Positions 30,458 to 49,262 of a stretch of DNA of 64,000 bases are shown in pieces. Source of the DNA: Bryum argenteum (Eukaryota > Streptophyta > Bryopsida > Bryales > Bryaceae); the NCBI GenBank assembly GCA_037043015.1, contig CM073327.1, forward strand, positions 9,840,727 to 9,904,726. Reading direction: 5' to 3'. A program made the translations under genes and the position numbers. Within the stretch, counting starts at the first letter, position 1; every line of letters begins with the position of its first letter. Below the pieces are notes generated by a model that was given only the letters and a program-made list of their open reading frames with translations, had not been told where the DNA came from and did no database searches.

Positions 30458-30466
30458 TTTGTTTTG
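30458..30466. repeat. 9-bp target-site duplication, left
   Basis: TTTGTTTTG lies directly before the left terminal inverted repeat and is repeated exactly at 49251-49259. Nine-base duplications are typical of Mutator-superfamily insertion. Confidence 0.88.
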
Positions 30467-30516
30467 GGGGAATGCTAGGACATGAGCGATGAGCCATGAG
30501 CCATGTGCCGTGAGCG
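30467..30516 (+). repeat. Left terminal inverted repeat of the MULE
   Basis: It starts GGGGAATGCTAG and contains GACATGAGCGATGAGCCATG. The repeat is built of heptads of the ATGAGCN type, which continue imperfectly to about 30,540. These iterated words are candidate transposase-binding sites. Confidence 0.88.
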
Positions 30517-30862
30517 CGATTCCATGAGCTGTGAGCGGATGACTTACTTTATTTAGTATATGCAATTCATCCATCAATGAGGATGAACTCATCCAGAATG
30601 AATGAATAATTTGCAAATGAACAAAGCATTCTTCAAATGAAATGATGATTTGTATTCCGACATGTCAAATTAAATCATTACGATTGGAAAGCTTAGGTTA
30701 AAAAAACGGCTAATAAAACCTCTAGAGCCACTTGCAAGCCATGGCCAGGGATATCTCAAACATGGATTTCTGAATGGCAGCCAGTTAGAGTTTACGAGAG
30801 TTTGTGGTCAGGTCCTAGACTAAAGGATACCAAATTTGAGGCAAGTGAATCTGTAGATTGCA

Positions 30863-31863
30863 GTGATGGAGAGGGGTGAAGTGGAGAGAGGGAAGGAGCC
30901 CTGGTTTGCATTGGAGGTTTCTTTGCCCAACTGGGGGCTGGATCCTTCAAGAGATTGCAACCATGTGCAAAATTATGAGGTGGTAAGAATGTTCGGTGAG
31001 AGACAAAAGAAGAAAGGATATAACTATCTAGTAGCGAAGTCTGATAGAGTTAAACAGCGTGTGGAGGAATTGTATCCTACCATTTACCAGTGTAGTAAGA
31101 TGCCCAAAATGAGTGTATCTCGGAGAGTTTAGCAAGAGCTATTGTGTTTGAGGTTTGCTACGGCCATCCAATGAACTGGGCACAGTATGCGTCCGAGAGA
31201 TGGAGAGTAAAAAGAAATGGGAAAAAGGAGGCGGTGATAAAGTATGGAGGAAAAGAGTCCAAAAATTCCTATTATCAATTGGTAAAGGCAAAAGTTGAGG
31301 GAGAGTTAGCAAAAACAGAACTGCAACACAGCGAGGTCGAGGCCGAATATAGCGATCGACATGTTTTCATTAGTAACCTGATGTCATCGCCGAAGATTCC
31401 AGCCAGTGGAGCCGAGGAAGAGAGAGTGAAGATACGGATATCTAGGCTCCGAGAACAGTTGCAGGTTTCAGAGGGTAATCTAAATACAATCGTGGAGAGT
31501 GGTCAACACGTGGATGAAGGATCAAGGAGGATCTAGCGACTTCAATCTATAATGCAGGACCTACAAGAGAAATCCGATCGATTGAGAGAGAAACTTTTGA
31601 AGATGGCCGAGAGACTCAAGATTCCCTTTACCATGCGCGCAAGTCAACATGCTGAAGATTATCAATCGGCTCGGAGCACATCCCAGGTGACAGTTAAAGC
31701 ATGTGCATTGTGTAATTCCAATTTCCGTCACATGGACATCATAGTTGCACCATGCAAATGCACATACCACCCTTGGTGCGTGGTCATGCAAAGCATGCAA
31801 AGCATGAGAAGACCACAGCAGTGCGACAAGGAATGTAAGGAGAAGTTCACGACAATTGGATGA
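30863..31863 (+). pseudogene. Transposon accessory ORF remnant with RING-like zinc motif
   Basis: Three consecutive open segments (30863-31132, 31144-31536, 31552-31863) appear to be one decayed gene. The first is in a different frame; the second and third share a frame but are split by a TAG at about 31,534. The parts encode a basic N-terminal region (NWAQYASERWRVKRNGKKEA), two leucine/charged coiled-coil stretches (RISRLREQLQVSEGNLN, QEKSDRLREKLLKMAERL) and a C-terminal cysteine/histidine cluster with spacing C-x2-C-x12-C-x-C-x4-H-x2-C, resembling a RING-type finger, followed by two more cysteines. Being just inside the left end, it may be a third gene of the intact element. Function unknown. 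Confidence 0.55.
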
Positions 31864-32392
31864 GGAGTCTCGGCCTCGACAAAACGCTAGGTATTTAGAG
31901 AAAACCATCTAAACTTCGAGCCAATGACATCATATACAAAATCATGCATTGGTATGTTTGCATTTTCTCTACTGCATTTGAATAAATAACAAAGCAGCTG
32001 AAATAATGTATGGACAGAATATTACTTTGAAACGCAACCATCTGAAGGTCAACTGCCCCAGAGGAAGCGCAAGCATCTCAGCTCAGACATTGGAGGTGTT
32101 AACTTTTCCAAAAGGAAAAATAAAAAATAGATGAGTCGGATCCAAACCGGTGAGTTTAAATTCCATCTGATTAAAATTATTCTGTTTAGTAGGATATAAA
32201 CAATCAAAGCTAACTCACGTATTAAAATGCGGCACGACATGGTAAAATATTTCTCAGATTCGCAAGATAAGTTGTTCCAAACTAGACATCATAGGCTGTC
32301 ACAAGGATCAGAATGGACAATGTACAATTTCACACAAACTAGTACATGTTAAAAGTTGTAAGTAACATTTTGTAGCAATATTATTCTATAAC

Positions 32393-32774
32393 AGAGAAAT
32401 CCGCTAAGTAGTCCCCAGTTTGGACCTTAGTTGATCCCCAGTTGGTCCCCAATCCGTCGTTTCGTGCCCAGTTTTCGGTTATCCGCTAAGTAGAGCAAAC
32501 TGGGGACCAAATGCACGAAATTGGGGACCAGATGTTCGGCGCTCGGCGCTGCCCCTCCGAAGTCTTCACTCTAGCTTCTCGGTGTGCTGCGGACTGGGCA
32601 TCAAGTCGAACTAGGGACCAAACTCGGAATACCATCACAATCGGTGCATTCTTGAGTTTAGCCCCCAGTTCGATCGTAGTGTAAAAAGTTGGTGCCCAGT
32701 TCGACGTTTCGTCCCCAGTCCGACCAAAACTGGGTGTTCTCGTCCCCAGTCCGTTGTACTTAGCGGATTTCTCT
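32393..32774. mobile_element. Inverted-repeat element A, copy 1 (nested in the MULE)
   Basis: The 382-bp element has perfect 17-bp termini AGAGAAATCCGCTAAGT / ACTTAGCGGATTTCTCT and is flanked by AAC on both sides (3-bp duplication). Its interior is packed with short CCCCAGT/ACTGGGG words in both orientations and an internal copy of TCCGCTAAGTAG near 32,470. It is non-coding. A second copy in opposite orientation lies at 35380-35749. The 3-bp duplication would fit a Harbinger- or CACTA-type mover, but the ends do not settle it. Confidence 0.78.
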
Positions 32775-33373
32775 AACATCTAAGCATTTCCAGTGTTGGA
32801 CTGTTTATATCTAAAATTTTGTTTTTGAATCAATTAGTGTATGAGGTCGGAATTGTAAATTACTAAAGTAGTTAATGATTTATGTGCAGATCATAGGATT
32901 TGAAGAGAAAACCTGAGAGTACATGGCTGCCTAGGAGGAACATAAATTTGAATCATTGAATAGTATGATGATGCCTTCAAGGAATCAATGCAGGATTTAG
33001 TTCTTAACTCTTGAGAGAAACAATTCTACATAACTGGATATATGTCACTCCTTCACACATCGCGGTGAACAAACTTTTTGGAGAGAAGTGTTGAAAAACT
33101 AAACATCTTCGATTTTATATTCGTAGGATATGGTACTAAATGCAAGAACCTGAAATGAAGGTTAAGTTGCTACCAGTGGCACTAGTGTAGAACACAATGA
33201 AATTGTATGAGTAAATATTGAATAGTAATATTGAACTCAAATAAGTTGCTTTGTATCCAAATCGGCACGAACGCCTCATACACAATGGATAGCCAATGTT
33301 AATTGAAACATCAAAGTCGCAAATATTCTAACAATGTGTTCTGTGGAGCTATCAAAATCAATATAGTCTACAT

Positions 33374-33600
33374 ACCCATTCGGCACCGAACGGGGTAGGC
33401 CAACCCAATTGTATGGGGTTGTTTGAATTGAGGGGAACGTGCTCTTTGCATGAAGACTATTGGATGAAATACACTGAGGACACCCATTCGGCACCGAACG
33501 GGGTAGGGCATCTCAATTGCATGGTGACGTCTCCTCTTTGCATGGAGACTTGTGGGCCAAGACATAAAATACATGTTAGTTCGGGAGAGTAAACAACCCC
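33374..33600. repeat. Tandem duplication, about 108-bp unit, carrying the palindrome
   Basis: Two adjacent units begin ACCCATTCGGCACCGAACGG (about 33374 and 33482) and share CTCTTTGCATG further on. Each unit starts with one copy of the transposon-wide palindrome; a third copy (TTCTGTACCGAA) ends the block at 33,602-33,613. Confidence 0.75.
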
Positions 33601-34189
33601 ATTCTGTACCGAACACTACACTCGGCCATAATTTGTTTGAGGTATTGAATCCATATTATCACGATGGAGCCTTCTCGAAATTGAGCCTCACTGTAGCTGT
33701 TCTTGCCGAACAGCTTGTACAATACTTAATTTATTCCTAAAACATATAAGTTAATTGACGTAGACAATAATTTTAACAAAATGAATAACACTATTTATTT
33801 TCATAGAAATATATAAATTTTTATTTACACTCTAGGAAAACACAATAAATTCCATGTAAGTATTCACTATATTGAAGATCTATATAAATTGTATAAAGTT
33901 TGAAAGTGTATGAAAAAATATTTGGGATGTATTTGAATAAAATGATCTTAATCAATCAAAATTATGTGTTTATTTAATTATACTATGAGCTAGTCAAAGC
34001 TATCTCTATATATAAAAGAACACGATTAGGGTTTTGTCTGTCTGTCCTTGGTGATCCTTCCGGGTGGTAGGGCGGTTGCCGGTGAGAGTCCGGTTTGCTT
34101 ATGTATACACGGTATGAAGAGTTTTAAAGATTTTGAAGGATTTCCGTAGGTGGTATTTGATTGTTATTAAGAATTTATTAAATCCCATT

Positions 34190-34560
34190 AATGTAACAAG
34201 GAGTCGAAGGGATATTGAATATAGAACATGAAAATGGGAGCAAAGTAAGGAGTGAATGGGAGATCAAGGAAAAATCGGAGGGGAACTATGAACCAGAAAC
34301 AAAAGATAGGAAATGGGATCGCAAGATGGGAACTATGAACAAATAATAATATCCAGGAACAAATGATGGAAACTAAGAATGAATGATAGAAACCAATAAG
34401 GGGAGGTGGAGGACGGAGAATGGCGAAAATAATGGGAACCGGGAATGGGAGTTTGGAAATAGGGAACCATTAACAAGGAAAAGGAGAACAGAGAACTAGC
34501 ACAAATGAGTGGGAACTAGGAATATAGGGACGAGGGAATAGAGGACATGCTATAAATCTT
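34190..34560. repeat. Purine-rich degenerate repeat tract
   Basis: About 370 bp with strong strand asymmetry (mostly A and G on the plus strand) and loosely iterated GGGAACTATGAAC/GGAAACTAAGAA words. It is non-coding. Confidence 0.6.
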
Positions 34561-34710
34561 AAAAAGCGGGGGGACCATCGACGAGGGAACCAAGGATGAT
34601 GGGTAGTATTTGAAGAGCACCAAATAAAGAGCTTACCCATGGGGACGAGGGGGACGTTACTCACAAATTAATTAAATACTATTTTTATTTTATTTTTGTC
34701 CAAGAGACAT

Positions 34711-35330
34711 CGGTATATAGAAGTCCTAACATGTATCCTTCGGACTCAGACATCAAAAAGGTCATATCAAAATTTAAAAAAAAACATGTTAAAAATCCAA
34801 ACGTAGGTATAAAAAAAATAAGTAGTTGGAGGATTCTCAATAGGGTATAATTATTTTTTATACCTAGGTTTGGAATTTTGCATGGTTTCATAAATTTCAA
34901 TCGAAGGTCAGGTTTAGACTGGGGCCAAGGCCAATTGAAAATGAAGGCCAATGCATCCTATGTGGCATGCACCAAAGCCCCCACTCCCTCATTAAAGCAT
35001 GAGCTTTAAATGGCCTGACATGGCCCCAAGGAAATGGAAAGAAATGCTCATTTTGGGAGCCCTCTTTTGAGAGGCTTGGGGCCATGTCAGTGGCTCTTAC
35101 ATGCTAATAAAAAAATAAAATAGTGTAAGAAGGATACCATAAAATACTATTGGCCTCCATTCATGTATAAACTCAATGGGGCTGGCCTTAACTTCTACAC
35201 CAATGGGGCAGCTCCATTTCAGTGGCCCCAACCTTAAAAATTGGCCTTCACCCCAGTGTAAACCCGCCCTAACGTTTTTGATGTCTGTGTCCAGAGGACA
35301 CGGGTTACGACTTGTATGTATATAAAGTCT
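34711..35330. mobile_element. Foldback element with a second inverted-repeat element nested inside
   Basis: The outer arms are about 34,711-34,757 and 35,274-35,330, sharing TTTTTGATGTCTG(A/T)GTCC and a following TTA(G/C)GACTT in inverted orientation. Inside it, a further inverted pair at about 34,911 (GGTTTAGACTGGGG) and 35,255-35,268 (CCCCAGTGTAAACC), each followed inward by AAGGCCAAT, defines a nested element. Both are non-coding. Confidence 0.6.
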
Positions 35331-35379
35331 TCATATGTAATTATTTATTTAATATGTATAAAACATTTGGAATACAATA

Positions 35380-35749
35380 GAGAAATCCGCTAAGTACGAC
35401 GGACTGGGGACGAGAACACCCAGTTTTGGTCGGACTGGGGACGAAACGTCGAACTGGGCACCAACTTTTTACACTACGATCGAACTGGGGGCTAAACTCA
35501 AGAATGCACCGATTGTGATGGTATTCCGAGTTTGGTCCCTAGTTCGACTTGGTGCCCAGTCCGTAGCACAGCGAGAAGCTAGAGTGAAGAGTTCGGAGGG
35601 GCAGCGCCGAGCGCCGAACATCTGGTCCCCAATTTCGTGCATTTGGTCCCCAGTTATCTCTACTTAGCGGATAACCGAAAACTGGGCACGAAACGACGGA
35701 CTGGGGATCAACTAAGGTCCAAACTGGGGACTACTTAGCGGATTTCTCT
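35380..35749. mobile_element. Inverted-repeat element A, copy 2 (nested in the MULE)
   Basis: The 370-bp relative of 32393-32774, in opposite orientation, has the same 17-bp termini and is flanked by AAT on both sides. The pair could fold into a very long hairpin if transcribed through. Confidence 0.78.
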
Positions 35750-36780
35750 AATGTATAAAACTACCTTTTAGATATCTATCAATGAATACATCTAGATATA
35801 TAATAATATATCAACATATATCTACATTTATACTAATGACGACAAAATTGGAAATAGAAATACATTTGTAACATATGTCGTTGAATATATAATTAGAGTA
35901 AAATGTGGAATCATAAATATATCCATGTATAAAACTAATCTAAAATTTATAAGGTTAAAAAATTTATATATACCATATTCAATATAAACATATCTGATGT
36001 TAGTATTGTGTAATTGATAAATACATGATATAAACTTGACACTCGGAACATTAATACACTCATACATTCGAATCCATTGTTTTTGAATTGTGCATGATGG
36101 TATAATATCTCAAAGATCAAATTACTCATTTTTGAAATGTGTTTACAGAATATTTAAAAACAAATATCACAAATAAATTATATATATATATATATAAATT
36201 ATAATTAGTATATTGTATATGCATATATTTAATATAATCTATACCATATAATAATTTTATGCATATATATACATATATAATTATAAATATATGTGTAAAA
36301 ACACATAATGATTATCTTGTCCATGGTTGAATGAGTAATTACCTAACATTATTAATGAATTTAAATTTACTTCTAATATTAGGAATAATAAGACTTGAGT
36401 TAAGTTTGGACATAATGAATTTGGCCAAAATTGATTAGAAAAGTGTGCACATTACGAAATTTGCACTGAATTCATTAGAAAATTTGGCACATTGTGAATT
36501 TGGAAATAATTCATAAGAAAAGTTTGGAGATAATGAATTTGGAAAAAAATTCATAAGAATAGTTGGTACATGTAGAATTTTGAATGAAGTGATAAAAACT
36601 TTTTGTACATTATAAGTTTTGCATCAATTGATAAACAAGTTTTGTACCACTTTGAAGAGAAGCATCAATTGATAAGCAAGCTTGTTAGAGAATATAGTTG
36701 AAATTATGTAAGGCATTATGAAGAGAATAATTGCATTAGGCATTATAAAGAGAAAATTTCGTACACACATGCCCAAGTAC

Positions 36781-36897
36781 CCCAAGTAAGTACTAGGGAT
36801 GCCCAAGTAAGTACTAGGGATGCCCAAGTAAGTACTTGGGATGCCCAAGTAAGTACTTGGGATGCCCAAGTAAGTACTTGGGATGCCCAAGTAAGTA
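36781..36897. repeat. 21-bp tandem array, 5-6 copies
   Basis: The unit is CCCAAGTAAGTAC(T/A) followed by GGGATG. Each unit is itself a near-palindrome around GTAC (CCCAAGTA..TACTTGGG). The array lies about 750 bp beyond the 3' end of the ParB-methyltransferase gene. The region 36,400-36,690 to its left holds a looser repeat based on AATTCATTAGAAAA and TTTGGCACAT. Confidence 0.85.
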
Positions 36898-37649
36898 GCA
36901 CCATACCTTCACTTTCATGCGTCTTGTAATGGAAAGTAGGGTACAATGACTTGAGTTAACACTTTGAATCATTGATCCTACATCATTAAAAATTAATGCC
37001 CTTACTACGCACGCGAGCCCACGTACGCTGATATTGGCAAATTAAGTCGGTGCTCAAATTCGACCGCGCTCAATGGATACAGCTATTGGAAACTGATAGT
37101 AGAATATTCGACACCATAGTTACTAACAAAATATTGTGCCTTCACCCGATGATTCAGGAGTTACCAAGTCTACCGTTCTACTTCCAGACTCGGATTCGGA
37201 AGCTTCGTTGTCCACGAAGATGTTTCCTCTGTTGAGCCTTCCTTCTCTGTGGAAATCATCTTTGGATGAATCTTGGTTCGCAAGTACATGTGCCATCGCC
37301 GCAGCCGGGGGGGGGGGAAGGGAGTAAGTTGGAGACGGACTTCTGAAGAAGTCTGGATCCGCATAAAATGGTCTGAGAAAGGTACAAAGACCTGCAGAGG
37401 ACCGAATATGGTTCGATCATGGACCATGTGACAACATACAACAACGACGACAAGATGGTTATCGAATGACTGCAATTGCAAGTGAATGGCAACAACGACT
37501 AAAATGGTTCCTTCATCTAAATCTACAATAGACGAGGTCAACTATGAACCAAAGTCAAAGGCGAATATCCAATGTTTACTTATAGGCTCAGGTGAACCGA
37601 ATTACAAAAAACGGCGACCTCGTAAATGTGCCATCAAAGGTAATAGAAT

Positions 37650-40600
37650 TCAGGGGCTCAAGAGCACAGCGTCCATACCCCTTCCGTTGCGTGGCTTTAG
37701 AGATTCAGGTGGTTTTGCCATTGGCATCAAGACTGTCTGGAACATATTGTAATCCTCCTCGATTCCGAAGAAGTGACGACCAGAGGCACGGCAGGCACGG
37801 AGCGAAGCACCTGTAGATGCGGTAAGATCAACCACAATGTCCCCTTCTTTGGAGCACATATCTATGAGTGTTTGAAAGAAGACGTCTGACTTCTCGTGTG
37901 GACCTCGCATTGGTTTTCGGTCAGCTCCGAGAGTGGGTGCTTGAACATCATTTCGGAGGCTCAAAAATCGCAACGGATCCTCTGGAGTGTTGGCTAACAA
38001 AGGGTCTGAATTGAATTTCAGAGGCTTCGGAATTCGGTCCCAATCTGGTTTTCCTTGTGCTCGGCCAGTCTTCAACAGCAAGAGCGCCGAGAACATGTAG
38101 GTCTACAAATACAAAACAAGTAAATGTTAGATTAACTTCTACAACCCCTCCTAGTTCAGTTTCCATTATACGATCACATGCTATATGGATTTAAAATTAT
38201 TGACACTAAAGAGAGTTAATAACCATACCATCATATCATCGTAAAGAGGATGTGTGAGGGGTTCTACTTGATGGCACGACCATTCGCATTTGGTCTTCAA
38301 TCTATGCTTCTCAATCCACCGCATAATCTCCCAGTTCATTCCCGAGGGCATGAAGATCAATATTCCTCCATCGTCATGGAGGAATCGAGATGCAAATTCG
38401 AAGCGGATGGTGTACCATTCTTTTGGTTTCCCACCCATAGAGTTCCACTGAGGGACTTGATTGCCAAATCCCGAGACAATGGAGTCAAACGGAGTATCAA
38501 TAATGATCAAGTCAACACATGGGAACATTCCCCTTTTGCCTCCAATGTAAGTCTCCTCATTACCGCGTGCCTACATTTTACATATAGAATATGTTATACA
38601 AGATTCATTCAAGTATCCAAATGAAATTTGCAAGAAATGACGGCATTGAGCAAGAAGTAGGTCGTGGCTCACACACCTTTTGTGGCAAATTCTTCGAAGA
38701 CCCCAGAATCAGACCCAAGGAAACTAGCCACTGCCTTGTTCTCAATCTGCTCATGGTAATCTGCTCCATGTGGAGCTCGACTAATCAGGCTGGTCCTTTG
38801 GACCGATGCCTGCGCTCTACCGAAACTACGGGCAGTGTAGGAGTGGGATCGAGAAGACCGAGCCTCTGATTGAGTCACCTCAACCAATTCGGTTTGGTCT
38901 TGGGCGTCCCCTTCAATGTGCTTACCTCTTTTTACGATCTCGTCTTCGAGTGGAGGCTGTTGTGCGCTGCGCTTGTTGCTCTTGGGAGCAACATCTCGAA
39001 GTGAATCCCGAAGTGCTGGTGCCGAACGTGGACCCTTGGCGACTGTCGACAGACCAGTCCTCCCCTTTGCTTTATGGACTCGACCAACCACCACATCATG
39101 GGCTTGAGACTTGCCAGCACCTGGAATTTGAACTGGCGCTTGTCGATGGAAGGTAGGTTCAACTTGCTTTCTTAATTCGACAAGATGAGGTGGAGTTTCA
39201 TTCGGGTCCATTTCAATGTACCAATGGCAGGCGAAGAGATGGTCTTCTGACCAGTCGCCTGCCTGGTCCGCCATAAACATGGTCTCAGCATTGTGGATGT
39301 CTAACCACGAGGCAAAGCATGGATGAGCGTCCTGCACAACTCCTTCCTTGAGCAGATTGTGCGTCCAATACCTGGACAAAAAACCACCACAAAATGAGCA
39401 CATTCTGAAAGAAATTTGCATGTAGTATGGACTAAACATGAGAATGGCTTTGAATTTTTATGATCCAATCACCTGTAGATGAGTCGGTTCATTGCTGGCT
39501 CCCCGTGCGGTTGTTTCGGTGAATCCCATTCGGCGGACTTGCTTATTTCCTTCCTCATAATTGGGAGATTAAATGCATAGTCCCATTGGTGAATCTTGTG
39601 GTAATCAATGTACTTCTCCAAGGACTGGGAGCATGGTTTTCCCGAAGTGGGGTAATCCATCATAATGGAATTGAACAACTGTAACGATGCTACCTTCAGC
39701 TGATACCAAAAGACATACTTGTGAAGGTAATTAGTGAATACGACGTCATTGATAGGGGATATAGGAAATTTTTTCATCTTACGATCCGATTTTGTTGAGT
39801 TCCAAAGCTTGAGTAAATACTCCTTCTCCGATGGTGGAAGGCACGCCGAAGCTAAGTTCTGGAGCTTCTCTGTAGTCATCTCCGCATTGATATTGGTTGA
39901 CCAGTGCTTTGCTATCTGCCGTGTTATCCAAATGTACATGTTAGCTAAACTTGAATAAATCAACATAGAAAATCAACTCGAATAATAACATAGGACAAGG
40001 AGACTCTGGGACGCCGTTCGGCAATGAACGAGGGGTTCAGGCCTAGCATCGGCCACATCAAAAATTGCTGGTCTTAGGGAACAATGTTAGCGGAGTGGCA
40101 GTCCAATGCTGACGGAGAATGGAATGAACATGCCGTACATCCAGATTTTTAACTTCTGAGTCATCGTTCGGTACGGAACAGTCACTTAAATTGTAGCCAC
40201 TGGGTTTGTACTTGGCTTGCGAAAATTGACCATACTGACCCTATTCGGCACAGAATGACTATTACAAGGACACCATATTCTAGATAATTTCCTAGTAAAC
40301 ATCTTGAAAAGACCTTACCTCAGCCAAGAAGTTCTTCCCATTTGCAGGATTAGCAATCGCCAAGTGCTTATTGAATGGAGTCGTAAGAGCCTTCCTCTTT
40401 GCCTCCATGGCCCCGTTAATGGCCGCATTGAGCCCTTGAGCTGTTCGACGTCTTCTTGGAGTATCTTCTTCATACTTTCATTGGCCCTCATCTCCAGCCT
40501 CCATGATGTCTTGCTGTCAATACGAACAAGGATGAATCAGCTTAGGCCGATCAATGATACCCTCAAACACTATAATGAAATTGGGAGATGGCTTACAGTG

Positions 40601-43536
40601 TGGATGAAGTCAAGAAACTTTGCCCTCGAAATAGGATACCATGGCCTCTTCTCAAGTGGGACATCTTGTTGTTTTCTTGCAACTACCATCTCGTCGTAGC
40701 TGAGAATGTCTTTAAACTTATCGAGCGATAGAGATCCAATCTTTTGAATGCGTTGCAGCGTATGCACAAGATTCTGCTTGACATGGCTGTTTTCGTTCGA
40801 CTTGTTTATATCATGCATGGCTGTTAAAACGTCTGTTACGTCATCAGCAGTCCGGAGGACGATTGACCGAACCCGATAATGCCAGTCCAAGTCGTGCTTA
40901 TGAGATCTCCGAATGAAATCATACCATGCCACAAGTCGATGGTTACCGTCCCACACATAGAAGAATTTGTTGGAAAGCGCGGACAATTCTGGGTCTGCCT
41001 TCAGGAAAGCTTCAAACTCCCTGTCCTTTGTGCGCCAGTGTGTACTCCACTTTGCTCGATCCGCTTCAGATACCGTTTTCTCCTGGCCCTCGAAGTTAGT
41101 GATTGATACATAGAAGACCGACGCTCCATCCCGGTACCCATGCGAGAACTCAGCCTGCATCTTGGCGACATCATGCTCTAAGGCAGGTCTCACAACTTGA
41201 AGCTTGCGCATTCGACAGAGCGGAATATGCATCTGTGACTTCCCGGGACCAAACATCTCAAGCCTTTTGAGTATCTGGATCGAATTGACACGTGTCTTCT
41301 GATGGGCCACGATCATTCCATATTCCTCCTTCGGGTCTAACGGCATTGGTCTCGGGCCACCATCTCCATTTGATACGACATCGTCTTCATCGTCATCATG
41401 TTCTTGATTGATGTCATCAAATCCACGACCTTCCGGATCACTTAGTCCTTCCTCATCATGGTCATGGTCAGAATCTTGCTCGTGTCCCTCGTCCATTCCA
41501 GAGCTCTCACCTGACTCATCATGCGTACTGGGGACTGCACAACGCCGGTGAACACATGAGATTTTTAACATAGAAATTAATCAGTCAGAAGGCACAGATC
41601 AAATCAACATACATCCAACGTTCGGTGCCGAACTCGTCATTCACCATGATACGAATGTAGATGCTTAGTACCTTGGATAGCATTGGGTGCAACTTGCAAA
41701 TCTTGATCTTCGATATTGTTGCCATAGTTGGAGTGCTCATCATCAGCTTGCGACCCTAGAATAATCGACCACTTAGTTAGGTTTCTTTGAAATGAATCCA
41801 TAACTCAACGAAAATTTAGATAGCTTCAATGAATAATCGAACCTGCCGCATGAGTTGCATTGGGGTCGTTGTCGTAGTCAAAATCTTCAATACGCAGCTC
41901 TGGTCGGTCATTCCCTGAAAAGGATATGCAGACAATGATTTAGAAAATGGAGTTCGTCACAGAACTTCATTCAAGACTCCAATATGAAGCTGGATATCTT
42001 TACGGATCTTACCGTAATTGTTACCAAAGTTCAAGTTTGACTGTCCAGGCGATGCAGAGACACCCCTCATATCACCTGTCGGATTATGCCGCGCCATTGG
42101 ATATGCTCTCTACAAAACCAATAATACATCGTTGTCAGGCACTCTTAATTACACAAGAAGCACCTATTCGGCGACGAATTCATATTGGACGAATACTTTT
42201 GCGTGATTACAATGTTAGCATGATCACCTGTTCCGTACATAACATGACCCTATTCGGTACAGAACATGACCCTATTCGGTACAGAACACCGTTTTATTTA
42301 AGCGCATCGAACCCAATAGGGTCACACCACTCACACTGCTATACATAAATATACTTATTATAGCAATCGTATTGAGTAATCGAGCAATTCACATGGATAT
42401 AGTCCAATAAATCAATCAACTCAACTAATTATTTCACAAGTACTTGTCATTCGGTACAGAACTCCATAATTCACCCATAAATATAGAGGAACTAAGTAGA
42501 TCAGCTGTTGGTGTTCGTCACATAATGGGTGATGTAGTCTACTAGCATGCAATATGAAAGAATAAGGGAATGAAAACTCATTAGACACAGTGAAGGTGTT
42601 CATCACAAAATCAGGGCCGAATAGAGAATTTGATCATATATCAAAGCCATGGAAAGATGGTCGTAGAAAGTTAATCGATCCTACAACTGATACGATATCT
42701 TGAGTTCGGTGCAGAACGTGTCACTTCTCTCTAATCTACCAGCCCACACAAACAAGTGACTGCACAAACGGCATAAATTTCGCATCAAGATTAATATCAA
42801 TCCAATTAGACGTTCGGCACAGAACTAGATCTGAACATTGAGATCGACCTTCATATTGAGATCGACCATCATACATTGAGATCGACCATCATACATCAGA
42901 AACTCACCAGAATGCAAACTCGGTTACAGCTACTTCACAAACATGTAATACTTTGGCCTTCTAGAACTGATATATACACAGAGGCCACTCATTGTGGTTG
43001 CCGTTCAGAATTGGAACCCTAGCACTAGTAGCCGCCAAATGTATTTTTCGGCAACCTAGCCAATGATTACCATTCATCCAAGCATCCAATTGCCGACGAA
43101 TGATGTGATAACTTCCTATCATTCCTAGTGAGCTACATTCCTTGTCGAGCCTATTCAGTTACTCATCAGTGTAATCACTATCATTGGATGAGTCACCTCT
43201 CCATGCATGTCCGGATGCAGCAGGATTAAACCGGATCTAGAATCTGTAAGATCGTGGATTTTGTTTATGAGACATAAGAAACGAAAATCACATTCAGGAC
43301 GATTACTGTAGGAAATAATAGTTTCATACAGAATAATACATTAAAGTTCGAACATGAAACAAACTTACCACTTCGTTTATGGTAGAGAATGGTTGAATCT
43401 CCCTCCGTTTGTAGGTATTCGTGAAGAACTCCAAATCGCCTCCTCTTGATGAGAGTGGGTCGCTTTCTCTATTCAAACTCTCAGCTAAACCATCTAACAA
43501 CGCCTTTGCTCTCCTAACTGCTCTTGTCTCGACCAT
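37650..43536 (-). CDS. ParB/sulfiredoxin-like plus DNA N4/N6-methyltransferase-like fusion protein
   Basis: Ten exons (complement) are 43369-43536, 42013-42109, 41843-41914, 41672-41755, 40597-41534, 40319-40509, 39473-39915, 38675-39371, 38229-38570 and 37650-38102. All have GT-AG borders and matching phases, for about 1,161 residues. Residues 1-200 are polar and acidic. Residues 205-440 contain VWDGNHRLVAWYDF (DGNHR about 336-340), the GxxR-type signature of ParB/sulfiredoxin folds. Near 922-925 the sequence LIIIDTPF matches methyltransferase motif IV (DPPY). Residues 1080-1125 (HEKSDVFFQTLIDMC, VVDLTASTGASL, GRHFFGIEED) match motifs X and I. This order is the beta class of bacterial N4-cytosine/N6-adenine DNA methyltransferases. 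Motif IV has Thr for the first Pro and motif I is diverged, so catalysis is uncertain. Exon 6 is 191 bp, one base short of keeping frame: two good reading frames meet near 40,431-40,440. I infer a role in marking or protecting the element's DNA. Confidence 0.75.
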
Positions 43537-46500
43537 ATCTTAGAAGACAATGAAACTATCATCTTGATTTGAAGAGAGGTGTGGTTTGGTGCCCTTCTTA
43601 TAGGGTCGGGGTTGTTGTACACATGTCCGAGTTGGCACAAAGGTTTAGCTAAAATGAAAGTTTTCGGCGCCTTCAATCATTAATACTATAATGTTTTGAA
43701 TTAAAGTGAAAATGATAAACGCGGCCGATTAATAATGGACAGTTACGCATAAAGTTAGAGCATTTTGTAAGCACAACTTTGGTGGCATAGCACACTGTTG
43801 TGCTCTAGGACGGCGATACCCCAAAATATTTGATGCCATTTGTCACTATTTAATTCAATAGATGCCCATATTTGTTTTATTCGCTTATCACACCTATTAG
43901 TAGTACTAAATATCACCAGGCTATAGCAACCTCTAACAATCCTATCTAATATTGACTTCTAATATATTCCACGTCGCATTCTCAATTATTAAATTACACG
44001 TCACTATTTTTAACTATGCCTTCTTATAGTCCTGACTCCGTGAAAGGCCATTCTGTACAGAATGCCAAATTGGTTCATAATTTTTACAGACGTCCTAAAT
44101 GTAGACTTCCAGCCGCCATCTACCAGCCCACACAAATTTGGGGTTCTGACGTATCTATCTACCTAGCATCACAAAATAAGCTCTATTATCTGGCCATTGT
44201 TTTGTAAGTTCCAAGTACTATTAAATGGCCTCGTCCTACTCCATACTCACTCATTGTAACTTCCACAATGGCATCCAATGTTGTTTCCTTCCGTCTCATG
44301 TCTTCGTCTCTTCCCTTTGTACTCCATGTGGACGATGATGGATTCATAGTTGTCGATGAGAGAATTCTTTGTCTTAGATTTCAACTGCAAGAGTCATCTT
44401 TGATTGTTGAGAAAGAGGAGTTTGATAGGGATGGAGCTGTTGTACGAACTATATATCAGAAGCCTCATGTCGTGGATGGCAAGACCACCTATAGACTTAC
44501 TGCAGGAAACTATACAATCATTGGTGGCCTACAGTCACTACATTTGTCACAGTCGTCTACTGCGACTCCCCGAAGAATGTCATGTCCAGTGCGTCATCTA
44601 AAGAGTAGATTACCCACGGTCAGTGAAACTCCTGAGAATGCAATTCATATTGTAAGTTCTGACGATGAAGACAGCGAATCTGATGGATATCTTCAGGGTC
44701 CATCCCGGTCTAAGGCTGATGGAGTTAAGAAGGAGATCGACAACGCATTAAAGGTGATCAACACTCCATCCTCGGACAGCTTCAGTGAAGATTCGTTTTT
44801 GAGAGCAGATACGTTGTCCAGAACAATTGATTCTGAGACTCCATCACGTGACACCCCTCGATCTACTTCCTCAAATTGCAGTTTCTCAAAGGCACCATCG
44901 ACTAAGAGCCCGCTTTCCATTTCCACAGATTGTGTTGTTCCCAATACTCAATCTCAGGATCCCCATCCGTCTGTCTCATCAGAAGGCATTGTTTCAGGGA
45001 CTCCATCGCCTGCCATTGTGAACAACGATTTGAGAGACTATACGACCAGACTCTCTCCTGACTCTCAGAGATCCATACCAGATGCAGTGACACCTATATT
45101 AGATTCTTCTGAAAGGAGGTCTAAGAGTCTGAGCTTGGCGGACACCTCACTATCATCATTCGTGAGCATTTACGATTCGATTGTGGCATTGGGGAATCAG
45201 CGGATGTCCAAGAGTGACTTGAAGTCTGCCGATCTTGCTTCATTCTCACACCACAAGGTGAAGTATCTCCCTGTCAAGTTCAATGGAAATGTTATCTTCG
45301 AGTTGCCAAATTTACCTGCTGTGAAGGAGGGAGGAGCTGGATTGTTGGACGGAATGGATCGTAGAAGTGATGGGCATGCGTGGACTGAGACAGCTACTAC
45401 AAATATTTCAGATCCTAAATCCCAGCTGTCATTTAAATATGTGAAGTGTCTTGGGCACTTACGGTGTTTGAATAGCACTTGCCCTCAGATTGAACGGACT
45501 GGAGATTATAACGACCTGTATTGGGAAGGATCTACTCCTGAGGTTCTTACCCCAGGCCCTAACCCTCAAATTCCAAAGAAGTGGTCACTTGTTTGTCGTT
45601 TCTGCAAGTCTCCACCATCATGTCTGAAGTTGTGCTTTTGCAAAATGTACTACATAGTGTCCAAAAATCCTGCAATGTCAAGAGCGGCTGTTCATTTTGG
45701 CTTCCATGATCATCCCGTTGCTACAGGAGATTGTAGGGAAGCTCTAGATCTAATTCGTGAAGAGATTCTAACTCAAGTGTCCCGGACACCAAGTGCAAAG
45801 GTTAGTGCCATTGGCTTGGCAGTTGGTCAACAGTTGCTTTTGAAGGGCCTTGTGGATGAGAGTTGTGAAGGAAAGAAGTTATCAGAGGATGAACTGAAAC
45901 AAATATTTGATAAGTGGGCAAAGCTGAGCACTCCTAGTATTCGGAATATGATAGCTGAGGCTAGGAGTTTTTGTGGTCAAGGTGGATATATTGACAACAT
46001 CTTGAAGTTGAAGAAGTCGTCGACTTATGACTATATTCACGACAGCGTTTTCCCTGGGCAAGGCAAAGACTTGGTCTACCTCTTCAAGATGTCAACGTGT
46101 GGTGTTGGAAGTGGAGTTGACCTTGTTAAGAGGATGCAAGCAGGTGGGGACTTGGAGAACGAATGGGTAATGTTCGACCACGTGAAAAGAGTGAAGGAGT
46201 GGACCACTCTTGGCATCCACGTTTACGATCCGGACTATCGAAAAGTCATGACCATTGCTGTTTGTGATGGTCCAAGAAAGGATGTGGATGTCCATGTTGA
46301 ATATTCTAGACAAGCATGGTGTCACCAACGTTAATTTCAAAGGGTTTATGGCGGACTCTGCGCAAGCAAACTTTAACGCTGTTCGTACGATATTCGGATC
46401 GAGAAATCCAAAGGAGAAAATGGAGGGGAAGGAGCGCACTTGTCAATTCCATTGGTCAATGGCTCTTGACAGGCACACAAAGCAGCTTATCAAACCAGAA

Positions 46501-47117
46501 CTCCAACAAATCCATGTGAAGCTTTGTCAAGATTACCGGAAGTCCCGATCAAAATCGGACGCTGATGCTGCTTTGGCCTCTATTAAAGCTTGGTGGTTTT
46601 CTTCCGGTGCTGTTGCGGAAGGGTCCTTGAAAGGGCTCAATGACTGGATAACTTTCTGGCATTTTAGATTTCACCAGTGGGGCTCCCATGTTTCAGAGGT
46701 AAATCACCGAAACCCTTGAAATTCTTTTTTGTCTTCCAAATTTCCCCGTTCCACAAGTTTGCCCTAAATTTAGGCATTCGTTACAGAACTACTACAATGC
46801 AAACCCTAAATTGTGTCGTTCGTTACCGAACTGCTAGACTTGGAACCCTAAAAAGTGTAGTTCGTTACAGAACTACTATATTACAACCCCTATTATTCGT
46901 AGTTCGTTACCTATCAGCTGTATTCCATGCCCTACTTTTGTAAGTTTGATACCGTACGGCTACAATCAACCAATACCTTATAAGGTATTGGTTGATTTAT
47001 CATGGTTAGAATTGGACCTTGCTCGGCGATTTCTGTACAGAACAGTGTTCCATTGCATAATTTGCCCTGCTAGTTCCATAGCATAATTTGCCCTTGTAAA
47101 TGCTGTTCTTTACAGAA
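40017..47117. promoter_or_regulatory. Cluster of TTCGGTRCMGAA palindromes in transposon non-coding DNA
   Basis: The 12-mers start at 40017, 40167, 40244, 41621, 42167, 42231, 42253, 42275, 42450, 42705, 42813, 44051, 46777, 46819, 46861, 47031 and 47106. Earlier members lie outside this span at 33379, 33487 and 33602. Typical forms are TTCGGTACAGAA, TTCGGCACCGAA, TTCTGTACAGAA (a perfect palindrome) and TTCGTTACAGAA. All of those listed fall in introns or intergenic spacers of the element; I saw none in its exons. Spacing is irregular and the surrounding sequence differs, so apart from the local pair at 33.4-33.5 kb this is not a simple tandem repeat. A sequence-specific binding or modification site is the natural explanation. 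Confidence 0.7.
43537..44267. promoter_or_regulatory. Divergent promoter region of the MULE gene pair
   Basis: This 731-bp spacer lies between the two start codons of the ParB-methyltransferase gene (leftward) and the transposase (rightward). It contains the perfect palindrome TTCTGTACAGAA at 44051-44062, about 210 bp before the transposase ATG. Shared or coordinated control of both genes is inferred from the arrangement. Confidence 0.55.
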
Positions 47118-48803
47118 TGACATATGATTGCTAATTTGAATATTGCAATGCATTTGTTTGCCTCTCTTTTAATGACATGTTTTTTATTTTTTTGATTACT
47201 CATGTATTCGACATGTACTCTGATCGATTCATTATTCTGAACTTAGTTGAATATTCTCATACTATTGTAGATTTTACTTCTCGTACTTAAATTTGTCGTT
47301 TGCCCCCTCTTGCAGTTCCTCTCTCTTGAAGAAGAAGCATCTATGCCCACATGTAATTTGTCTGAGACTGTGCATAACAAGTGGCTGCAAGCTTCAGGCA
47401 ACAATATGGTTGACCTCTACGACGCTACGCTGGACGATTACTGTAGAGCGGCTTTACAGTCGACTCAATTCCACAACTTTTTGAAGGGACACCTTGGAGG
47501 ATCTGGGCCTTGTAGGAATGTCCTGAAGTTGCGCGCAGCGACTCGAAATGGTAATCCAGTGAAAGTAGCTCAAATTGTTGGTCAGATCTCAGTTGATGCT
47601 GGTTTAAACTCACGGGTTCCTCATCTGGAAGGTGAGAGTATTTTTGGGTCAGCAAAACGTAAGTTGGACCTTCCTCCTGGCGATGACGATGATTCGCATC
47701 GGCATGATCGAATCAACTTCTCCATTCCAAAATTGGGAAAACATTCGACACTAGGGGCAACGCGTTGCTTGAAGCGATCTCCAAAGACAACCGACGTTGT
47801 TTCAGATACTATGCCACCTGTTGTAGCAGTGGTAACTCGCAACAACTTGCCTATCCGAGAGTCACCATGTACTAATCTTTTAGAATGGCGCATTGAGCGT
47901 ATTTCGCCACAATGCAAGGACCAGTGTAGGGGATACAATGGTGATGGCAAGAGGTGCAACGCTCGCATTGCCAAGTACAGGCGACCTACTGCTGCTCCTA
48001 CATTTACTGGAATTCAAAGGAAGTTCAAATCGAATGACACTGAGCAGAAGCAATTCTGGTTTTGTCCCACTAACCTTGAGGCTTGTGTGATGGGTGGACG
48101 TTCGAAATACATCATGCATTATGCTGATGTGCCAGAAGTTTGGCCAGTCATGATGGGTACTAATTTGTCCCGGATTGAAATTCAAGGTCTAGAGTCCGCT
48201 GGTTTTAAGCTTGATGAAGGATTTGTGAGCCACGTCAAGGAAAAAACTGGTTTTAAACTTGAAGGTCATGCACCGGCAAACCGTGGAGGAACACCAGTGG
48301 ACCGCTTTCAGTGGAGTGATCCAATATACTCTGAGAGCGATGTCAACAATGTTCCCAGGCCCCCCAAGTCATCTAGGGATTATAGGCCCACAATGCGAGA
48401 AGGTAAGAAATTCAAGAATGTTGCAGAGCCATCATCTGAGCATATTGCAAAATTTAACAGATCCAAGACAATCGAGTGTTCTCTCCTGAAGGCGAGAAAG
48501 GTCCCTCATCCTGGTTATGGATATGTTTTTACTATCCACACTCCGGGATCTATTGCTAAGAATCAGCTATACGAAGTGACCATTGGTGATTTTCCAGCAT
48601 GCACGTGTCTCGACTTTGTCACAATGAAGACCAGTGTCCTAGGCCGTGGCCAGAAGAAATGGATCCTCTGCAAGCATCTTTACTTCTGCCTGCAGAAGTT
48701 CATGGATTGTACGGTGGAGGATAAGTTCATCCATCGCCCTGCTTGGACGTTCAATGAAGTCAGTATGTTGACAGATAAAGCTGATTGGTCTGGTTACACA
48801 TAG
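44268..48803 (+). CDS. MULE transposase with N-terminal zinc finger and C-terminal SWIM finger (frameshifted)
   Basis: Two exons, 44268-46698 and 47316-48803, are joined by a GT-AG intron, about 1,306 residues if the frame were continuous. The N-terminal 400 residues are serine/proline-rich. A WRKY-GCM1/FLYWCH-like zinc finger follows (GHLRCLNSTCP, VCRFCKSPPSC, then FHDHP). Next is the DDE region: HVYDPDYRKVMTIAVCD, then FKGFMADSAQANFNAVRTIF and CQFHWSMALDRH, with the late acidic residue in NLSETVHNKW at the start of exon 2. Near the C-terminus ACTCLDF and WILCKHLYFC form a SWIM finger (CxC...CxH). This layout is that of Mutator-like transposases. Between KVMTIAVCD (about 46,264) and KHGVTNVNFKG (about 46,310) the frame shifts by one net base with no room for an intron, so this copy probably does not make full-length enzyme. 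The intron carries at least five of the palindromic 12-mers. Confidence 0.8.
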
Positions 48804-49200
48804 GATTTTCAGCTATGATGGTCTTCATTAGATATTTCAGCAAGGGTGCACTACTATGCTATAGAATTCTATACTTCGGGATGTTCAAATAGAGTAGTTT
48901 GATTTGTTACTTTTAGCATTCCTATTTATATTGGCAATTTGCATTGCTTGGTTTTGATTGGATTTATGCCAATTAAATAAGCATCCTCTATTTGTTTGTT
49001 AATTTAATATTAATATATATTTTTACTTTATATCACTTATTCATATTTACTTAGTGGCACCTTCTGTATTGTACATTTCTCCTTCCAATATGAGATGAAT
49101 GTCATCTATGACAAATATTCTGTTCCATTTCATCCACAGTCTACATCCGGGAAAAAAACGTGAAATTTACTAAAATTAGAAAAATTACATGAGCCATGAG

Positions 49201-49250
49201 CGCCCATGGCTCATGGCTCATGGCTCATCGCTCATGTCGTAGCCTCCCTC
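49201..49250 (-). repeat. Right terminal inverted repeat of the MULE
   Basis: The reverse complement of the last 50 bp begins GAGGGAGGCTAC and then matches the left end through GACATGAGCGATGAGCCATG and beyond (43 of 50). Just inside, a further ATGAGCCATGAGC copy sits in the opposite orientation, so the end itself can fold. The target duplication TTTGTTTTG follows at 49251-49259. Confidence 0.88.
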
Positions 49251-49262
49251 TTTGTTTTGGGC

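Follow-up and report, generated by a model that had tools for sequence, protein, structure and literature searches.

A MULE-like transposon lineage in the moss Bryum argenteum pairs its transposase with a divergent ParB-like/methyltransferase-like gene and carries family-specific palindromes

Why should a DNA transposon of a moss carry, beside its transposase gene and divergent from it, a second gene built of prokaryotic-looking parts? The question is raised by an element at positions 30467-49250 of a 64,000-nucleotide stretch of the Bryum argenteum genome (contig CM073327.1, here C7:9840727-9904726; this whole stretch is referred to as the window), and it was addressed by searching 258.8 Mb of the genome, in 25 contigs. 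On balance, we think it probable that the element belongs to an old lineage of several MULE-like (Mutator-like element) families, in which an accessory protein with a ParB-like and a methyltransferase (MTase)-like half recognises its own family through palindromes and favours the element that encodes it.

The limits of the element could be confirmed. An earlier note, made from the letters of the window, had claimed matched inverted ends at 30467 and 49250 and a perfect 9-bp target-site duplication (TSD), and both coordinates are exact: the terminal inverted repeats (TIRs) share a core of 44 bp with 4 mismatches (91% identity; local score of 68, versus a best score of 29 in 200 shuffles), and the same nonamer, TTTGTTTTG, is found on both sides. 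Within these ends lie the two genes, and the parts of the element to which we refer below are the following:

30458..30466, no strand: left copy of the TSD, TTTGTTTTG, read directly
49251..49259, no strand: right copy of the TSD, TTTGTTTTG, read directly
30467..30517, plus strand: left TIR (core 30474-30517), its TGAGC units continuing to about 30537
49200..49250, minus strand: right TIR (core 49200-49243) with TGAGC units, from the TIR alignment
44268..46698, plus strand: transposase exon 1, with zinc cysteines, the region of the first Asp, GFMADSAQAN and CxFH, from open reading frames (ORFs) and alignment
47316..48803, plus strand: transposase exon 2, with the SWIM zinc finger (CxC...CxH), from alignment
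37650..43536, minus strand: accessory gene, ten predicted exons and 1147 codons, from the splice model
40597..41534, minus strand: predicted exon 5 of the accessory gene, with an acidic stretch and the ParB-like domain with DGNHR, from splice model and alignment
38229..38570, minus strand: predicted exon 9, with the MTase motif IV region (DTPF), from alignment and PF01555
37650..38102, minus strand: predicted exon 10, with MTase motifs X and I (EK...D..A.TG), from PF01555

The pairing of these two genes is repeated across the genome. Searches with the transposase (65 matches scored of 1526 candidates, with identities of 41-48% outside the window family), with the ParB-like exon (126 scored of 1584 candidates) and with the MTase exons (109 matches; 150 scored of 387 candidates) provided the entries for a pairing count, in which 65 transposase, 109 MTase and 125 listed ParB-like entries were used, second pieces of one locus having been omitted from the latter. 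A listed ParB-like exon lay divergent from the transposase and within 15 kb at 19 of the 65 listed transposase matches, as compared to a chance mean of 0.23 and maximum of 3 (500 runs of a model in which several contig sizes were rounded or guessed). Among the listed entries, two ParB-like pairs were convergent and one was on the same strand; for the MTase exons there were likewise two convergent pairs and one on the same strand, with one further ParB-MTase pair otherwise arranged. In addition, 47 of the 125 listed ParB-like entries are followed within 6 kb by an MTase exon in the same orientation. When the three best-ranked transposases lacking a listed partner were read directly, ParB-like and MTase exons were found divergent and upstream of all three, which are not independent loci because all belong to the C8 family. 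The MTase exon list and the PF01555 matches add C2:15735279, C6:17226142 and C2:33608328 to the paired loci. Overall, the gene is divergent and upstream at no fewer than, that is at least, 25 of the 65 listed transposase loci, two of them of the window family.

In the C8 family, TIRs and a 10-bp TSD enclose both genes; TIRs were also found in the family represented by C1:35402000, where no TSD was found. Two further loci, L014 and L016, hold transposase pieces with no ParB-like exon in the DNA read, the DNA upstream of the pieces lying outside that reading. Between families, identity is 0.56-0.74 at codon position 2 and 0.26-0.42 at codon position 3, and this pattern shows the ParB-like, MTase and transposase parts to be under purifying selection. 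Pairing at many loci, together with purifying selection, therefore argues for an old two-gene transposon lineage. Judging from these comparisons, the two genes move and evolve together, and their pairing is ancestral and common to families about 45% identical in protein. The association of the two genes put forward in the earlier note is thus no accident, given a copy of about 98% with both genes and the 25 or more paired loci, and in the loci examined, drawn from match lists that were cut short, the refuting conditions named in the note (the transposase elsewhere without the gene, or the gene at a host locus) did not overturn it; its idea that the element "has acquired" the gene, taken as a recent event, is unsupported because the pairing is common to such distant families.

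The copy of about 98%, c4a (C4:20491836-20510107), carries transposase and accessory gene, and no TSD was found at its ends. Adjoining it, c4b is an inverted partial copy, with the accessory-gene half kept and the transposase half absent. A third copy, at C10:8427075-8431673, has been reduced by deletion to 4.6 kb, its two TIRs remaining and both genes missing; this deletion derivative has a TSD of its own of 9-10 bp (CGTTTTCAC or CGTTTTCACA) and keeps three of the palindromic sites described below. That a host gene had merely been caught between chance TIRs is ruled out by the approximately 98% copy and the deletion derivative. As a separate observation, c4a and c4b face each other within C4:20491836-20524635 and form an inverted repeat of 12.4 kb whose arms are 8.1 kb apart; next to the first C4 copy, at its right end, lies sequence that by eye resembles a retrotransposon.

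As to the nature of the carrier, the features of the transposase and of the ends point to a MULE-like DNA transposon with a DDE/SWIM-type transposase. The SWIM pattern is seen by eye, rather than by profile, in all five aligned transposases (four families), and the alignment also displays the Asp motifs and a CxFH or CxYH after the second Asp. TSD lengths of 9 bp (window), 9-10 bp (C10 copy) and 10 bp (C8 family) fall within the 8-11 bp that define MULEs, while no TSD was found at the c4a or C1:35402000 copies. The Pfam MULE profile (PF10551) matched none of six transposase relatives at E<1, and of its 72 matches in the genome even the closest is 56 kb away from the nearest listed transposase match (of 65). 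As this profile does not match, the MULE label of the earlier note draws only on TSD, TIRs, SWIM and CxxH. Pfam includes a KDZ transposase profile, and Pfam-A gave no KDZ match for the six relatives at E up to 1; a PDB search with the transposase returned one match at E 0.73, which was taken as chance. The DDE/SWIM gene claimed for the window is recognisable as such, but its reading frame is interrupted: the frame changes between approximately 46252 and 46331, where the relatives read through in one frame. The C4 copy also reads through this place and has one TGA elsewhere; the two copies have therefore been damaged differently.

The accessory gene had been described as a divergent ten-exon fusion of ParB and methyltransferase. 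Its splice model does close over ten exons, but predicted exon 6 contains one in-frame TGA, and the splice marks of the window are not cleanly transferable to c4a and c4b, where one acceptor and some donors differ. The MTase half matches PF01555 (N6_N4_Mtase) above the gathering score in the window (1.5e-7), and this profile matches all four accessory sequences at E up to 1, with the motif order IV-X-I of a beta-class N4/N6 DNA methyltransferase; motifs X and I are recognisable in the alignment, motif I as D..A.TG or similar. Moreover, a profile of the four MTase sequences has DpnA (1.8e-8) and CcrM (3.7e-5) as its nearest solved structures. When the genome was searched with PF01555, the two matches above the cut-off were the two copies of the window family, and no further one was present among the 15 matches listed (E up to 1; genes searched exon by exon). 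For the ParB-like half, [DE]GNHR is kept in five of five aligned sequences from four families, as DGNHR in the window, and suggests the ParB label at the level of a motif. Pfam found no DUF1985 (VANC) match in accessory exons 5 and 7-10, the exons scanned. Among viruses, the MTase half has 22-35% identity to phage sequences over the best 20 of 250 matches; its viral search also gave one viral contig, with a 247-aa MTase ORF and, by eye, no ParB-like ORF. No gene annotated as ParB is present in the phage neighbourhoods of four MTase matches, within the stretches shown, and a search for viral relatives of the ParB-like half confirmed none.

We then turn to the palindromes. With at most one mismatch, RTTCKGTACMGAAY occurs at 17 sites in the window element and at one site in 45 kb of window flank; c4a has 15 sites, c4b has 9, the deletion derivative has 3, and none is present in 9.4 kb of C4 flank or 5.4 kb of C10 flank. 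Markov sequences modelled on the element contained a mean of 0.03 sites and a maximum of 1 (100 sequences). None of the 17 sites touches a predicted exon, with 39% of the element being coding. The stretch from the ParB-like exon to the start of the transposase holds seven of them, a later intron of the accessory gene two, the transposase intron five and left non-coding DNA three, as located by the motif count (no strand):

33378..33614: three RTTCKGTACMGAAY sites (at most one mismatch), left non-coding region
40166..40256: two sites, predicted intron 6 of the accessory gene
41620..41633: one site, predicted intron 4 of the accessory gene
42252..42825: five sites, predicted intron 1 of the accessory gene
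44050..44063: one site, divergent intergenic region
46776..47118: five sites, transposase intron, with a spacing of 42 bp among the first three

Other families were analysed by an unsupervised search for clusters of like 14-bp palindromes, in which sites with fewer than 4 G+C were skipped. The C1:35402000 family has a cluster of five TCTCGGTACCGAGA sites, including one variant (Markov maximum 2), with a constant palindrome core and varying flanking bases. TTTCGTYRACGAAA forms clusters of six in C8, four in L052, four in L053 and three in L051 (Markov maxima 1-2), and ATCGGGTACCCGAT a cluster of five in L015, variants included (Markov maximum 2). In c4a, of the window family, the cluster is five (Markov maximum 3). 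As controls, four flank stretches gave clusters of 1-2, and L014 and L016 clusters of 2. Thus four families each own a palindrome that is repeated in their non-coding DNA. In the C1:35402000, C8 and L015 families the palindromes lie 5' of the ParB-like exon, on the transposase side, and sites in this position are present in all four families with clusters, those of the window family being found elsewhere too. Genome-wide, TCTCGGTACCGAGA has 69 sites (none for the reversed control), and 48 of the 50 listed ones lie within 8 kb of a listed ParB/MTase match, all 48 on its 5' side, as compared to a chance mean of 0.65; CTTTCGTYRACGAAAG has 45 sites (one for the reversed control) and ATCGGGTACCCGAT has 68 (none). 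This co-location used the first 50 of the 69 TCTCGGTACCGAGA and of the 68 ATCGGGTACCCGAT sites, and the size of C5 in the chance model was rounded or guessed. In a de novo count of 8-mers, palindrome pieces lead in c4a, C1:35402000 and C8 and appear in C1:11530000; the window is dominated by two nested inserts, and the C11 stretch is led by GCCGGCAC, with no palindrome cluster above 2. The weight of this evidence lies in the repetition within single copies, in the dyad symmetry and in the different word of each family.

The palindromes look like self-recognition sites of the parS or VANC type, and on this likeness the favoured account can be set out. The accessory protein would bind the palindromes of its own family as ParB binds parS, and would in this way recognise its own kind. 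With less confidence, we suggest that the bound protein may protect the divergent promoters from host silencing by holding them open or marked, acting by base methylation in some families and by mere occupancy of the DNA in others. The outcome would be support for transcription and transposition of the own family, including non-autonomous derivatives which keep TIRs and sites, and the whole would resemble in its working the VANC system of Arabidopsis VANDALs, where the protein is of another type. Both the marking of DNA and an anti-silencing role, as the earlier note had imagined them, are unproven. A fuller form of this account is a partition-like system, in which a ParB-type clamp loads at family-private palindromes and spreads along the element, the MTase fold writes bases or, where catalysis has gone, reads or occupies them, and the family is shielded from silencing, protein and palindrome co-diversifying and the families being mutually blind; this we regard as tentative and rather doubtful.

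Several results weigh against recognition of the own family by a ParB-like, MTase-like protein. The ParB label, to begin with, lacks profile support, and the fusion predicted by the earlier note, together with the profile searches it proposed, was borne out for N6_N4_Mtase, whereas ParB could not be confirmed: Pfam gave no ParB match in five members (DUF1015 at 0.1 in one of five), PHROG gave a ParB-like family (phrog_1033) in one of five at E 0.34, ranked below two non-ParB families, and a PDB profile search with this half found nothing. A genome search with PF02195 matched no transposon copy and had one weak match elsewhere, and a comparison with three solved ParBs by hhalign showed no signal, the profiles (Neff of about 1.6) being too shallow for a verdict and unrelated pairs looking alike. 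As to the MTase half, beta-class enzymes canonically have [DNS]PP[YFW] as motif IV and DPF.GSG as motif I; here motif IV reads DTPF in the window family, and three relatives have D[LVI]PE in its place, which makes methylation doubtful, and the activity may have been lost. The palindromes have weaknesses of their own. The link between them and the accessory protein is one that we infer, and the protein bound at these sites could instead be the transposase or a factor of the host. The RTTCKGTACMGAAY count is weak by itself because the motif was defined on the same element, just 7 of the 17 window sites lie between ParB-like exon and transposase, and the unsupervised cluster in the window (4) is one above the Markov maximum (3, in 20 runs). 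GTTCGGTACMGAAC occurs genome-wide in the two C4 copies only, with 10 and 11 matches, by strand, for its reversed control. The palindromes are not all independent because some sit in tandem arrays, several of those in C8 sharing flanks within an array of approximately 106 bp. Just 23 of the 45 CTTTCGTYRACGAAAG sites are near a listed gene match (all 5'), and 9 of these 23 come from three directly read ParB loci added to the list; for ATCGGGTACCCGAT, just 16 of 50 listed sites are near one (14 of them 5'), most having no partner in the gene lists, which were cut short. Co-location across the genome carries little weight in any case, because copies of one family share any word, and the 8-mer test is not specific, because one window flank is equally enriched in unpalindromic 8-mers. 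As a side observation, the rarity of GTTCGGTACMGAAC relative to its reversed control may mean that the exact dyad is avoided elsewhere in the genome.

Among the alternatives, the one that survives best takes the palindromes as operators at which the transposase or a host factor acts; the accessory protein would then help transposition structurally, its MTase fold being dead and an epigenetic role absent. We consider it unlikely. In its favour, DNA transposases often bind subterminal repeats, five of the 17 window sites lie within the transposase intron, the listed sites of two other families are 3.6-5.5 kb 5' of the transposase matches, and the aromatic residue of motif IV is gone in three of four aligned sequences. 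Against it, sites are found 5' of the ParB-like exon in four of four families with clusters, and the TIRs hold a repeat of their own which would suit the transposase. In the window, TGAGC occurs six times in the first 100 bp and four times in the last 100 bp of the element (left-end shuffle control: mean 0.11, maximum 2 in 2000 shuffles). These units are common to the TIRs of all three families compared (6, 2 and 3 in the left and 4, 4 and 3 in the right 100 bp; shuffle means 0.10-0.12, maxima 2 for the left ends), with a spacing of mostly 7 or 14 bp and a start about 15-18 bp inside the left end; the left end of the C1:35402000 family, with two units, merely equals the shuffle maximum. The TGAGC units are a signal distinct from the palindromes and would be a natural place for the transposase to bind.

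Slightly more unlikely is that the accessory protein has DNA methyltransferase activity and writes N4-methylcytosine or N6-methyladenine over the copies of its family, thereby protecting or labelling them. The PF01555 matches in four of four sequences, the DpnA and CcrM profile matches, the recognisable motifs X and I and the purifying selection on the MTase exons all speak for this, but the non-canonical motifs IV and I and the in-frame stop of the window copy weigh against an active enzyme. Finally, that a host or bacterial gene was captured once by the window copy and carried as a passenger is very improbable, for even if DNA transposons capture genes, and the ORF set at 30857-31863 has no counterpart in the other families examined, the divergent arrangement at so many listed loci (most of them 41-48% identical) and the purifying selection stand against it; lone gene capture was rejected, as the pairing recurs across families.

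To our knowledge, VANC is the main case in which it is understood in detail how transposons tell themselves apart from the host and escape silencing one family at a time. Recognition of the own family by the accessory protein, as we favour it, would extend this to a different type of protein, made of prokaryotic-looking parts, for which four families of a single genome offer candidate binding sites, and the four pairs of family and palindrome make specificity directly comparable by swapping. If true, a principle like that of ParB and parS works in eukaryotic nuclei, and the ParB-MTase genes of algal transposons gain a testable mechanism.

Such genes have indeed been described, and the statement in the earlier note that it knew of no described family with this combination is not supported. 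According to the accessible part of the report, the 21.5-kb element Sola1-1_Ec32 of Ectocarpus has a 1104-aa gene with ParB-like and N4/N6 MTase parts opposite its transposase, and its authors suggest that such proteins may bind and epigenetically modify their own transposon (PMC12477816). The likeness to our element, a gene of approximately 1100 aa opposite the transposase in one transposon (here 1147 codons, inside TIRs and TSD), goes as far as "ParB-like" holds and is one of description rather than of compared sequence. The Ectocarpus element differs in being of the Sola1 superfamily and from a brown alga, and no palindromic sites or large multi-family set are named in that part of the report. 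The same report cites similar proteins in transposons of red and green algae (Petroll 2025, Iyer 2011), a likeness which is accordingly second-hand. As for the sites, the sections available on VANDAL21 describe a transposase (VANA) with accessory genes, and a dense short motif, YAGTATTAY, in non-coding DNA and introns, spread in tandem and variable among families, which VANC21 recognises in non-coding DNA (PMC5735166). In those sections VANC is shown with DUF1985 and DUF287 and no MTase is mentioned, and unlike our words, YAGTATTAY is not palindromic. Phage proteins that fuse a ParB-CTPase with N6_N4_Mtase likewise join the two domain types in a single protein carried by mobile DNA but, as far as the excerpt tells, are prokaryotic and come without a transposase (PMC12704722). 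The bdelloid N4CMT and the Marchantia 4mC methyltransferase are, by the text at hand, further bacterial-type amino-methyltransferases taken up by eukaryotes; they differ in being host genes, and N4CMT is fused to a chromodomain instead of a ParB-like domain (PMC8885841). Among the open-access titles and abstract beginnings listed, none pointed to such a gene within a MULE-like element or to palindromic sites serving one. A ParB-like and MTase accessory gene beside a transposase is therefore of a kind already known; new, as far as this literature was searched, are the MULE-like carrier, the extent in one genome and the family-specific palindromes.

The remaining observations concern other parts of the window element. 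The ORFs at 30857-31863 form a third set, broken and at the left end, with a Cys/His-rich stretch (CALCNSNF...CKCTYHPWC), and are retained in the C4 and C10 copies. Two inserts of about 375 bp, at 32394-32768 and 35379-35749, are 95% identical to each other, lie in opposite orientation and are both missing from the C4 copies; this pair is a young non-autonomous element nested in the window transposon. Lastly, a tandem repeat with a 21-bp unit, GATGCCCAAGTAAGTACTTGG, occupies 36778-36900 and adjoins the 3' end of the accessory gene.

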